Positions 9,762 through 55,514 of a stretch of DNA of 62,699 bases are shown piece by piece. The notes under the pieces are model-generated. The model saw only the letters and a program-made list of their open reading frames with translations, was not told the origin of the DNA and did no database searches. Source of the stretch: Gallionellaceae bacterium (lineage in GTDB: Bacteria > Pseudomonadota > Gammaproteobacteria > Burkholderiales > Thiobacillaceae); the NCBI GenBank assembly GCA_028714875.1, contig JAQTLN010000022.1, forward strand, positions 1-62,699. The letters are read 5' to 3'. Numbering within the stretch: position 1 is the first letter of the stretch; every line of letters starts with the position of its first letter. The position numbers were made by a program, and so were the translations under genes.

Positions 9762-11060
9762 CTACGACTGCAAGCGCTTCATGGTGTTCACCGCCAGCAC
9801 CAGGTCTTCCCAGGCTTTGGCTTTGTCCGCCGGGCTGCGCAGCAGATAAGCGGGGTGATAGGTCACCACCAGAGGCACGCCGCGATATTCGTGGACACGC
9901 CCGCGCAGCTTGCCGATGGGGGTATCGGTCGCCAGCAGGTTTTGCGCGGCGATGCGCCCGACAGCGACGATGATTTTCGGTTTGATCAGGTCGATCTGCC
10001 GTTCCAGATAGGGCAGGCAGGCCGCCACTTCCACCGGACTTGGGTCGCGATTGCCGGGCGGGCGCGATTTCAGCACGTTGGCGATGTAGACGTTCGCGCC
10101 GCGTTTCAACCTCAAAGCGCCGAGCATGGCGTCGAGCAACTTGCCGGCCTGGCCGACGAAGGGCTCGCCCTGGCGATCTTCATCCGCCCCCGGCGCCTCG
10201 CCGATGAACAGCCAGTCGGCATGGATGTCGCCGACGCCGGGCACCCCCTGGGTGCGGGTCTTGTGCAGATCGCACAGGGCGCAGGTTTTGATGGCGGCGG
10301 TGAGGGCGGGCCAGTCGAGGCTAGCGATGGGTAGGGCGGCAGGCGAGGACGCCTGCGCTACATCCCCTGTAGCGCAGGCGTCCTCGCCTGCGTTTTTCCA
10401 GGCGCTACTGAAGCGAAAATCATCTTCCTCCGCGCACAACCTCGCCTTCACCGGGTTCCTCCGGATGTAAGCCGCGAGCGCACGCATCTCGTCGTCGTCG
10501 CGAACCACCCGATCGAAACTTTCTCTCTGCCAGATCGCGCCGCCGCGATCCAGTTGCTGGTTGATCCGATGGGCGGTCCACGATTTAACGCTGTGCAGGA
10601 TGTCGCTCAAGGCATGCTCACCCAGCGGCGTCAGCAGCAGATGCACATGGTTCGGCATGACCACATATTCATGCAGGATGTAGCGGTCTTCATGGTGATG
10701 CAGGGCCTGAATCACCCACTCGGCCAGTTCGGGACGGACAAGCAGGCATTCACCGGCGCCCCGATCAAGGTAACGCTCGGCTTCCCGCGCCCGTTCGATC
10801 TCCGGCAGATCGCGCCAACTGTCCAGTACGTCCTGGGGCAGGCTGTCGGCCAGGCGGAAGGTAACAAAGTAGGTTGCACCCTGGGCTTTGACGTGGGGGA
10901 GGTAGCCTCGAGAATGGATGCCCTGAGTCAGGTGGGCGCGATCCTTCGGCGATGGAATGGCGGACGTAGGCGAGGGCGCCTGCGCTACATCGGCTACATC
11001 CTTCAGCCTCCAGCGTGGCAGCAGGCCAAGCTCCTTGAAGCAATCCTCGCGCGAGAGCAT
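9762..11060 (-). CDS. Family-4 uracil-DNA glycosylase with an in-frame RAYT transposase insertion
   Basis: One uninterrupted frame (432 residues from ATG at 11060) encodes two unrelated proteins. Residues 1-22 (LSREDCFKELGLLPRWRL) look like the N-terminus of a family-4 uracil-DNA glycosylase. Residues about 45-222 are a REP-associated tyrosine transposase: HSRGYLPH start, HUH motif in VVMPNHVHLLL (His about 139 and 141), catalytic Tyr about 199 in AAYIRRNPVKARL. Residues 250-433 are the glycosylase proper: CALC Fe-S ligands, GEAPGADEDRQGEPFVGQAG active-site loop, and TYHPAYLLR. The third expected Fe-S cysteine is Ser333 (LKSRPPGNRD); the fourth is Cys349. The start overlaps the rimI stop (TGATG), so the gene is translationally coupled to tsaB-rimI. 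The family excises uracil from deaminated DNA; whether the chimera is active, cleaved or non-functional is unknown. Confidence 0.9.
   Translation of the reverse strand: MLSREDCFKELGLLPRWRLKDVADVAQAPSPTSAIPSPKDRAHLTQGIHSRGYLPHVKAQGATYFVTFRLADSLPQDVLDSWRDLPEIERAREAERYLDRGAGECLLVRPELAEWVIQALHHHEDRYILHEYVVMPNHVHLLLTPLGEHALSDILHSVKSWTAHRINQQLDRGGAIWQRESFDRVVRDDDEMRALAAYIRRNPVKARLCAEEDDFRFSSAWKNAGEDACATGDVAQASSPAALPIASLDWPALTAAIKTCALCDLHKTRTQGVPGVGDIHADWLFIGEAPGADEDRQGEPFVGQAGKLLDAMLGALRLKRGANVYIANVLKSRPPGNRDPSPVEVAACLPYLERQIDLIKPKIIVAVGRIAAQNLLATDTPIGKLRGRVHEYRGVPLVVTYHPAYLLRSPADKAKAWEDLVLAVNTMKRLQS
10339..10989 (-). mobile_element. REP-RAYT unit inserted in the udg gene
   Basis: The inserted segment is bounded by REP sequences. 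At 10966-10989 there is one REP (GTAGGCGAGGGCGCCTGCGC...). At 10339-10391 there is an inverted doublet of the same REP: 24-bp perfect arms at 10339-10362 and 10368-10391 with a 5-nt loop. The IS200/RAYT-like coding region lies between them, and the REPs are translated as DVAQA-SP(T/A)-like peptides. Gene context on both sides is glycosylase, so the unit appears to have landed in the poorly conserved linker without breaking the frame. Confidence 0.82.
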
Positions 11061-11524
11061 CACAGCATCATCCGCATGACCAGGGCGTCTTCACGGCCAT
11101 GGTCGGCCGGGTAGTAGTTGCGGCGCAGGGCGATGCTCTCGAAGCCAATCCGTTCATACAGGTTCACCGCGCGAGTATTGGAGGGGCGCACTTCCAGGTA
11201 AAGCGTTTCGGTACCGTGGTGGCGGGCGGTATCGATGAGGTTTTCCACCAGCGAGCGGCCGAAGCCGCGCCCCTGCCAGGCGGGGGCGACGCAGCAGTTG
11301 AGGATGTGCCCCTCGCCCACCGCCATCATCAATATCCAGTAACCGGCCAGCGTGCCTTCGACTTCTCCCACCCAGCAGGAATAGCCGGAATCCAGGCAAT
11401 CGCGAAAATTGATCAGAGTCCAGGGGTAGGGATAGGAAGCGCGTTCGATCTTGATCAGCGCATCCAGGTCTTCCGACCGCATCGGCCGGAACGCCATTTC
11501 CAGCGGCTTCAACAGGGCATTCAT
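11060..11524 (-). CDS. rimI: Ribosomal protein S18-alanine N-acetyltransferase
   Basis: A 154-residue GNAT acetyltransferase. The acetyl-CoA-binding motif A is visible as ILNCCVAPAWQGRGFGRSL, with the RimI-typical start FRPMRSEDLDALIKIERASY, PWTLINFRDCLDSGY, and the C-terminal EVRPSNTRAVNLYERIGFE. RimI acetylates the N-terminal Ala of ribosomal protein S18. It overlaps tsaB upstream by 4 bp (11521-11524) and the udg start downstream. The tsaB-rimI pairing is common in proteobacteria and supports the name. Confidence 0.94.
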   Translation of the reverse strand: MNALLKPLEMAFRPMRSEDLDALIKIERASYPYPWTLINFRDCLDSGYSCWVGEVEGTLAGYWILMMAVGEGHILNCCVAPAWQGRGFGRSLVENLIDTARHHGTETLYLEVRPSNTRAVNLYERIGFESIALRRNYYPADHGREDALVMRMML

Positions 11525-12195
11525 CGCTCACTCACCTTGAGCGCCACCTTGTTGCGCACATAGAGTGGTTCCGCCGTTTCCGGCGCGCCGAACTCGCCGG
11601 CGGCAAAGCGCGGCGCGGCCAGCCTGACGATGGCGCGGGCATGAGGAATGGCCTCGCTGACGATATGCGCGAGACGACCCGCCATGCGCTCGCGCAGGGC
11701 CGGATAGGCGGCAAAGCCGGGGCCGGCGCCGAGACAGCCGGCGCTTTCCGGCAGCGGCGCGGCTTGCGGCGGGCAAACGACCGGCCCGACCAGGACGCGC
11801 CAGCCCGATTCTTCGCGGCGGTAAAGCGCGGCGTAAACCTCGTTCATGCGCGCATCCAGGCAGGCAAGCACCTCATCGGCGCCCTCCCCGGCTTCCTCGG
11901 CCAAGGCTTCCAGAGTGGAGACCCCCAGCACCGGCAGATCGGCGCCCAGCGCCAGCCCCTGCGCCACGCCGCAGGCAATGCGTAGCCCGGTGAAGGAGCC
12001 CGGCCCCATGCCGTAGGCGAGGCCGTCCAGTTGCCGATAACTCAGGCCGGCTTCGGCCAGAAGTTCGCCCAGCATGGGAGTAAGCAATTCGGAATGTTTC
12101 TGGCCGGCATGCACGGCGCGGAAACTCACCACGCCGTCAATCAGCAGCGCCGCCGTGCACCATTCGCTGGCGGTATCGAAGGCGAGGAGTTTCAT
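11521..12195 (-). CDS. tsaB: tRNA threonylcarbamoyladenosine biosynthesis protein TsaB
   Basis: TsaB, about 224 residues, the partner of TsaD/TsaE in making t6A37 in ANN-decoding tRNAs. The family signatures are MKLLAFDTASEWCTAAL at the N-terminus and GMGPGSFTGLRIACGVAQGL. The start chosen is ATG at 12195. The frame continues upstream to 12255, but those residues (IPPNPPLGKGG) are translated from a family-1 repeat. The G-run arm of that repeat ends 3 nt before the ATG and may stand in for a Shine-Dalgarno sequence. First gene of the tsaB-rimI-udg overlapping cluster. Confidence 0.93.
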   Translation of the reverse strand: MKLLAFDTASEWCTAALLIDGVVSFRAVHAGQKHSELLTPMLGELLAEAGLSYRQLDGLAYGMGPGSFTGLRIACGVAQGLALGADLPVLGVSTLEALAEEAGEGADEVLACLDARMNEVYAALYRREESGWRVLVGPVVCPPQAAPLPESAGCLGAGPGFAAYPALRERMAGRLAHIVSEAIPHARAIVRLAAPRFAAGEFGAPETAEPLYVRNKVALKVSER

Positions 12196-12197
12196 AG

Positions 12198-12445
12198 TCC
12201 CCCCCTTTCCCAAAGGGGGGTTAGGGGGGATTTTCGAAAGCTTGCACAGGCGCAACCCTTGGAGAAATCCCCCTCGGTCCCCCTTTGAAAAAGGGGGAAG
12301 TCACGTTCCCATCGGCTTTCGCGCTTATCACCCGCCAACGCGAAAAGAGCCTTTAAAAAAAGGGGGTTAGGGGGGATTTTGTTCGGCCCGCGCGCGCGCA
12401 ACCCTTGGAGAAATCCCCCCTGCCCCCCTTTGATAAAGGGGGGAA
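12198..12445. repeat. Two family-1 palindromic repeat units
   Basis: The first unit (about 12198-12297) has the hairpin CCCCCCTTTcccAAAGGGGGG, then TTAGGGGGGATTTT, a spacer with GCACAGGCGCAACCCTTGGAG, AAATCCCCCT and a second hairpin. The second unit (about 12352-12445) repeats this order, including GCGCAACCCTTGGAGAAATC. They fill the gap between tsaB and the DUF1015 gene; nothing else is seen there. Confidence 0.85.
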
Positions 12446-21079: not shown

Positions 21080-21138
21080 GTAGCGCCGGCTTCGTCGTTC
21101 TGATCAGCCCCACGAAGCCGGCGAGACGCCGGCGCTAC
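21080..21138. repeat. GTAGCGCC-type REP doublet
   Basis: The segment begins GTAGCGCCGGCTTCGTCG and ends with CACGAAGCCGGCGAGACGCCGGCGCTAC, quoted in part: CGAAGCCGGCGAGACGCCGG. It is an imperfect inverted pair closely related to the one at 55443-55514. Located between lysS and the IS630 remnant. Confidence 0.75.
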
Positions 21139-26929: not shown

Positions 26930-27040
26930 TTCCCCCTTTGAAAAAGGGAGGCCGCTCCCTCGGAGTGGTTTCTGTGGCATCACCCGTTCACACGAAATGA
27001 GCGAAAAAAAACGCCGGCAGGGATGCCGGCGCTACAGGGG
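26930..27040. repeat. Family-1 half unit and a GTAGCGCC-type REP
   Basis: At 26931-26952 there is a CCCCCTTTGAAAAAGGGAGG hairpin. At 27013-27036 there is GCCGGCAGGGATGCCGGC followed by GCTACA, a REP also seen at 29828 and 54086. Together they fill the gap between the convergent amidohydrolase and dnaK genes. Confidence 0.7.
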
Positions 27041-29827: not shown

Positions 29828-29853
29828 GCGCCGGCCGGGATGCCGGCGCTACA
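29828..29853. repeat. GTAGCGCC-type REP hairpin
   Basis: GCGCCGGCCGGGATGCCGGC followed by GCTACA, immediately after the stop of the metallo-beta-lactamase-fold gene (29857). Same family as 27013 and 54086. Confidence 0.7.
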
Positions 29854-55442: not shown

Positions 55443-55514
55443 TGTAGCGCCGGCGTCTCGCCGGCTTCGTGGGCCTGATCAGAAGGACGAAGCCGGCGAG
55501 ACGCCGGCGCTACA
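55443..55514. repeat. Perfect 28-bp inverted REP pair
   Basis: Arms at 55443-55470 and 55487-55514, perfect complements beginning TGTAGCGCCGGCGTCTCGCC, with a 16-bp loop. Closely related to 21080-21138. It directly adjoins the T-run of the terminator at 55514-55535 and lies upstream of the SpmAB-like gene. Confidence 0.85.

Follow-up and report, generated by a model that had tools for sequence, protein, structure and literature searches.

In a 62,699-nucleotide stretch of DNA from a Gallionellaceae bacterium (contig JAQTLN010000022.1; hereafter, the window), a REP-associated transposase (RAYT) and its flanking REPs lie in frame within the gene for a family-4 uracil-DNA glycosylase (UDG). This nested arrangement is old and common to many species. 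Judged from sequence, it is probably a protein-embedded REPtron, in which a RAYT and its own GTAG-headed REPs occupy the linker of a family-4 UDG in frame as a permanent extra domain. In published accounts a RAYT is an open reading frame with a REP on each side (PMC2817692), and RAYTs are single-copy transposases that have been inherited vertically for millions of years and are hence domesticated (PMC8049555); the persistence of REP populations is still being modelled (PMC8049555). A few unexpectedly long RAYT proteins, ascribed to gene fusions or annotation errors, were discarded in a classification of the family (PMC6006769). In the open-licence PMC literature we found no earlier report of a RAYT-UDG fusion, or of a RAYT embedded in a host enzyme, and no paper that pairs Y1_Tnp with uracil-DNA glycosylase.

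A RAYT and its REPs are encoded within udg

The fused gene is a single, uninterrupted open frame of 433 codons at 9762-11063 on the minus strand. Its probable start is the ATG at 11060, one codon past the listed GTG, which overlaps the stop codon of rimI (TGATG). A preliminary description had read this frame as the N-terminus of udg followed by a REP, a RAYT, an inverted REP pair and the catalytic domain of udg. This reading holds: a whole REP-RAYT unit occupies the linker of the UDG, and the frame is preserved across its REPs. Residues 2-22 (10998-11060, minus strand) form a UDG N-terminal segment of the LGLWPxWRLR type; as had been proposed for the first 22 residues, it resembles by eye the opening of relatives' unfused UDGs. 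It is followed by the N-side REP, GTAGCGCAGGCGCCCTCGCCTAC (10966-10988, minus strand), which is read in frame as the peptide VAQAPSPT and is slightly decayed, ending in GCCTAC. The RAYT (TnpAREP) domain, identified by Pfam, NCBIfam and alignments, spans residues 45-228 approximately (10380-10931, minus strand). The HUH motif and the tyrosine are where the preliminary description had put them: NHVH at residues 138-141 (10641-10652, minus strand), and Tyr199 (10467-10469, minus strand; AAYIRRNP), which is invariant in alignments A1 and A2 and which, from its position and by homology, we take to be the catalytic tyrosine. On the C-terminal side, one REP copy (10369-10391, plus strand) encodes AGEDACAT at the RAYT C-terminus and a second, inverted copy (10339-10361, minus strand) encodes VAQASSPA; the two lie within a perfect inverted repeat with 24-nt arms, and all three REPs of the gene have a GTAG head. 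The family-4 UDG catalytic domain occupies residues 249-433 approximately (9765-10319, minus strand).

Pfam places Y1_Tnp at residues 126-202 and UDG at residues 275-421. The NCBIfam model for REP_Tyr_transpos (NF047646) is matched at 84.3 bits, above its cut-off of 80, and UDG_fam4 (TIGR00758) at 213.2 bits, above its cut-off of 125.3. The transposase domain has the TnpAREP fold and is flanked by inverted GTAG-headed REPs, as membership of the RAYT/TnpAREP family asks; existence as a separate gene, a usual and not a defining trait, is lacking here, the RAYT being embedded in udg. At E values up to 0.1, Pfam finds only UDG and Y1_Tnp, and no intein splicing (Hint) domain. The structure model gives good confidence for both domains and low confidence for the linkers at residues 15-60 and 222-242.

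Neither linker of the window gene contains an ATG, GTG or TTG. Because the domain borders lack stop codons and, in the window gene, the RAYT lacks a start of its own, a complete RAYT can be made only within the UDG polypeptide; its translation has to begin at the start of udg, and the UDG domain is reached only through the RAYT. No such codon occurs in 5 of the 14 N-side linkers examined across the set or in 4 of the 12 C-side ones, and in other species scattered ATG, GTG or TTG codons lie in nine N-side and eight C-side linkers.

Immediately upstream lie rimI (11060-11524, minus strand), which overlaps the udg start, and tsaB (11521-12255, minus strand), both of which pass their NCBIfam models. 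The preliminary description had predicted that this tsaB-rimI-udg cluster is translationally coupled and hence expressed.

Distribution of the fusion among genomes

A RAYT occupies the same udg site in 17 genomes: 10 of the window's genus, six of a second genus in another family, and one further MAG with a complete fused frame (L041). Twelve of these fusions are complete open frames, four are cut by contig ends and one is broken. Among the 23 genomes of the window's genus that were searched, udg was found in 22, with a RAYT in 10 and without a RAYT in the linker in 12, while one 58%-complete genome has no detected UDG.

Complete frames in the window's genus are those of the window genome (G000), G005, G008, G011, G012, G017, G018 and G022, and the fusions of G006 and G009 stop at contig ends. 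The RAYT and UDG of G006 had at first seemed to lie apart; they are in fact on two contig ends that share one stretch of REP array, which accounts for the cut. Ten genomes of the second family were searched. Complete fusions occur in G168, G351 and G237 of the second genus, and those of G266 and G378 are cut by contig ends; what is visible of the G378 fusion, like that of G009, is limited to the udg N-terminus and RAYT. In G323 (L177/L182) the loss of the C-side REPs has put the RAYT and UDG in different frames, and the UDG domain has codons from which it could start independently. The gene may have split naturally, or its REPs may have been misassembled; the case indicates that the union of RAYT and UDG is not obligatory. 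UDGs without a fusion in this family are that of G205, in the second genus, and two from a sister genus. No match was obtained in one genome that is 70% complete.

Both domains are under purifying selection

In the computed pairs of fused species, dS between the RAYT domains runs from about 0.2 to 1.5. Nei-Gojobori (NG86) dN/dS ratios were calculated with our own script for 14 pairs picked out of 136 possible RAYT pairs; they are 0.06-0.19 for the RAYT part and 0.07-0.15 for the UDG part in the 13 of those pairs with both UDGs. The RAYT and UDG domains are therefore both under purifying selection. The HUH motif and the tyrosine are invariant in alignment A1, which holds nine UDG-embedded and two HsdR-embedded copies; in the remaining eight UDG-embedded copies they were read by eye, and in alignment A2 they are invariant except for one free-standing row, which has NHAH. 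The motifs GExPG..ED and HPAYLL, which we take to be active-site motifs of family-4 UDGs, are intact in all 15 fused copies whose UDG domain is in hand, contrary to the suggestion that the glycosylase might be disabled. By these signatures both halves look functional.

The RAYT module and the UDG have different histories

UDG trees track host lineages. The UDG tree included 15 picked loci from the other betaproteobacteria, and one locus (L101) was dropped from it for the AU tests on account of its long branch. A single vertical origin of all fusions together with their UDGs was rejected, the one-clade tree having a log-likelihood lower by 133 (p 7e-66). One clade was not rejected for the RAYTs of all UDG fusions (p 0.24), the fused UDGs of the window's genus including G012 (p 0.32) or those of the second genus (p 0.22), and was rejected for the RAYTs of the window's genus including G012 (p 0.023). 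The G012 RAYT groups with that of L041 (support 96/93), and a grouping of the UDGs of these two was rejected (p 1.9e-6). Embedded RAYTs from all hosts were not supported as a single clade as such.

The window genome and G006 are sisters by UDG (97/94). Their nucleotide identity is 91% in rimI, 94% in udg and 73% in the RAYT; dS is 1.52 for the RAYT versus 0.24 for the UDG, and sisterhood of the two RAYTs was rejected (p 0.0009). Since quicker protein evolution would not raise dS in this way, these comparisons indicate that the two close relatives differ by an in-place replacement confined to the RAYT. The replacement may have come about through recombination in the flanks of udg or through REP-guided insertion.

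A dispersed REP family accompanies the fused RAYT

The REPs that flank the RAYT are members of a dispersed family. Every one of the 10 fused genomes of the window's genus has 11-171 copies of the pattern GTAGCGCMGGCNNYYNNGCCKGC, and the 13 others have none; this split does not represent ten independent events because the fused species of the genus mostly form one clade. A reversed control pattern was absent from all 23 genomes. The window genome holds 96 exact matches against none for the control, which points to dispersed cognate REPs. Across 399 genomes of the order, apparently the same set for the RAYT and the REP scans, the REP is present in all 11 genomes with a close RAYT (3-140 copies) versus 6 of the 388 others, namely G071 (60 copies), G295 (24), G205 (two) and three genomes with a single match each. 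The reversed control gave one match each in G087, G090, G113, G132, G314 and G329, that is, in six of the 399, so single matches carry no meaning. G295, in which no fusion was detected, is 70% complete and belongs to the genus of the fused ones.

The copies in G071 are of a related REP (GTAGCGCAGGCGACC...), and this genome has no close RAYT. Four of its five RAYT matches were checked; two have other REPs and none has the GTAGCGCAGGCGACC... REP.

All seven other RAYT matches of the window genome were examined, and none has the fused-gene REP on both sides: two adjoin clear REPs of other types, and the one on contig C16 has a related REP on one side only. Three other RAYTs of G012 have another REP type or none. 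Further RAYT matches occur in 6 of the 12 unfused genomes of the genus, none of which contains the fused-gene REP. Because the REP is confined, within the genus, to fused genomes, and no other RAYT examined has it on both sides, the fused RAYT is the leading candidate for the enzyme responsible for this REP family.

Within the fused genes, 38 of 40 REP matches begin on a codon boundary (one G006 REP is counted twice, and G266, whose contig begins inside the RAYT, is omitted). The dispersed copies often differ from those that flank the RAYT: the CCGGC variant, which is not the flanking one, accounts for 25 of 33 REPs in G018, for most in G012 and for 10 of 10 in the window genome (of 96), in each case among the matches listed.

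The window itself contains further REPs of this family at 21117-21138, 27013-27035, 29830-29852 and 55444-55513; the first three are intergenic with respect to the plausible genes, one of them beside what is presumably dnaK. At L191 (contig C7 of the window genome) another RAYT adjoins GTAGGGCGGAAC... REPs that form an array with a spacing of about 130 nt.

A general tendency of the REP to insert into genes was considered as the cause of the arrangement. We took 40 REP stretches of G012 in list order (contigs C1 to C6, from 140 pattern matches, the fused locus excluded). Eight frames at seven sites extend at least 140 codons on both sides, of which one has a Pfam match, TonB_C, on one side, the other sites having been judged by eye only; on this sample the explanation was set aside. 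At L237 (G012, contig C5) the low-complexity N-terminal part of a TonB-like protein includes a REP read in frame; TonB_C is at the C-terminus of this protein.

Related RAYTs in other host enzymes

Among the closest of the other RAYTs are two, in separate genomes (L154, L155), that are nested in frame within HsdR-like type I restriction proteins of 1229 aa (P0002, at L154) and 1173 aa (P0003). Their order is HSDR_N and ResIII, the RAYT, and then EcoEI_R_C. The RAYT parts score 41 and 47 bits, below the RAYT cut-off of 80, the frames are under the NCBIfam cut-offs for type I subunits, and Pfam Y1_Tnp is above its cut-off in P0003 and not in P0002. A different REP flanks these RAYTs, with the peptides VEAASRRL and KRRDAAST. 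Two plasmid-borne HsdR relatives, one of which ends early, lack the RAYT block when aligned. P0002 also has REP-like peptides within its RAYT domain, between HUH and Tyr, and a repeated 12-residue peptide at two places in its HsdR part.

In one genome (L167) a related RAYT lies in frame inside an HmaB methylase of 1237 aa (P0004), a name that rests on PADLOC (1656 bits), the related NCBIfam model being below its cut-off. The RAYT part scores 97 bits, above the RAYT cut-off. The best plasmid matches to this frame come in two pieces and leave roughly a quarter of it uncovered, the pattern that hosts lacking the insert would give. A search of 398 genomes across the phylum returned this embedded RAYT and several RAYTs in short frames; 369 genomes of the class yielded four in short frames and no further embedded one, and 48 genomes of the order of the HmaB genome held no other embedded RAYT. 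The plasmid search gave one RAYT match, at 30% identity and annotated as a transposase. Since relatives have RAYT frames of ordinary size, embedding is one life style of this kind of RAYT and not the sole one.

Discussion

If the udg insert is a protein-embedded REPtron, translation of the tsaB-rimI-udg cluster would yield the RAYT within the UDG chain, and the REPs of the RAYT would have a double role as the DNA substrate of the RAYT and as coding sequence for flexible inter-domain peptides. The fused protein may cut REP single strands and so sustain the REP population. Host expression and protection would be the gain of the element, the latter because most ways of losing it would cost the host its udg. 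The module could have spread in two ways, alone or together: the conserved flanks in udg may have served for recombination, or members of a single RAYT lineage may have inserted into udg linkers more than once.

Inteins and in-frame homing elements also nest a nuclease in a host gene. The insert resembles them in that a nuclease is found at the same place of a host gene in many species and is exchanged independently of that gene. Unlike an intein, the fused gene has no splicing domain and the insert no visible exit from the protein; unlike the double-strand cutting of homing elements, its chemistry is, by family, that of a single-strand HUH nuclease. Homing elements of yeast are treated in PMC7282813. 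Known RAYT/TnpAREP proteins and REPtrons, such as E. coli TnpAREP (PDB 4er8), are usually separate genes, whereas here the RAYT has no start or stop at its own borders and is a domain of a host enzyme. Intragenic REPs (PMC3733652) and the palindromic elements of Rickettsia (PMC10969869) are likewise in-frame palindromic repeats read as peptide; however, the inserts reported in the excerpts of these two reports are of at most 82 residues, with no transposase mentioned there, and here a whole conserved transposase lies inside. A broader reading, to which we give tentative credence only, is that of splicing-free, homing-like inserts: a RAYT lineage in the linkers of DNA enzymes (UDG, HsdR, HmaB) that would spread between host alleles and make the host enzyme two-headed, so that an enzyme that scans DNA carries a HUH nuclease for single strands.

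The fused RAYT might instead be a passenger, inactive on DNA, with the REPs made by another RAYT and the insert tolerated as a spacer. The seven further RAYT matches of the window genome, one of them adjoining a single related REP, are in keeping with this, as is the difference in three genomes between the flanking variant and the commonest among the matches listed. We nevertheless hold it improbable: dN/dS is far under 1 and HUH and Tyr are retained, no other RAYT examined has these REPs on both sides, and half of the unfused genomes of the genus have other RAYTs, yet none has these REPs. Somewhat less doubtful, and still unlikely in our judgement, is that selection acted on the tether itself: with a glycosylase and a single-strand nuclease brought together on one DNA target, such as a REP hairpin of the lagging strand, repair or the movement of REPs would come under control. 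Such RAYTs are embedded in three unrelated DNA enzymes (UDG, HsdR-like and HmaB), both domains remain intact, and a 2013 survey of intragenic REPs found many in genes, and hence proteins, of DNA synthesis and repair (PMC3733652). Against this, the low-confidence linkers of the model suggest that the domains are independent, 12 of 22 UDGs of the same genus do without a RAYT, and the list of hosts is short and was reached through the RAYT rather than by an unbiased count of insertions.

We give next to no weight to a recent or neutral insertion or an assembly error, in whose favour there is nothing beyond the origin of the fused relatives as MAGs from named collections. The presence of the same gene in the assemblies of other species, from separate projects, shows that it is a product neither of chance nor of mis-assembly, and so not the junction error that the preliminary description had named as its refutation; the same architecture in relatives with large synonymous divergence likewise disposes of the fresh insertion it had allowed for. 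Exchange of the module independently of the UDG, its recurrence in a second genus and a further MAG, and the HsdR-like and HmaB hosts go beyond that description.

As a protein-embedded REPtron, a RAYT turned part of a host enzyme would have its persistence secured and could be expressed and assayed as one protein; a cleavage assay of TnpAREP on REP single strands has been published (PMC8266576). The arrangement bears on the presence of REPs in DNA repair genes (PMC3733652), and it suggests that a transposase module can pass from one host gene to an orthologous one with the reading frame kept. If the tether matters for DNA processing, the fusion would be more than a variant of a known element.

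The glycosylase half has the same whole catalytic domain and motifs as family-4 UDGs (PDB 4zbx, 1ui0), from which it differs in carrying about 180 transposase residues in its N-terminal linker and in having serine for one candidate Fe-S cysteine, as do most unfused relatives. The cysteines C261, C264 and C349 are present in the window gene, and KCRPP reads KSRPP. We take the KCRPP cysteine to be a candidate Fe-S ligand of family-4 UDGs, the assignment of all four cysteines as ligands being our assumption. In the window's family, 20 unfused UDGs were examined, and 19 have serine in place of the KCRPP cysteine. Counting fused and unfused UDGs of this family together, the position (10065-10067 in the window) is serine in 27 of 29 examined, and the cysteine is kept in all eight UDGs examined of the second family.
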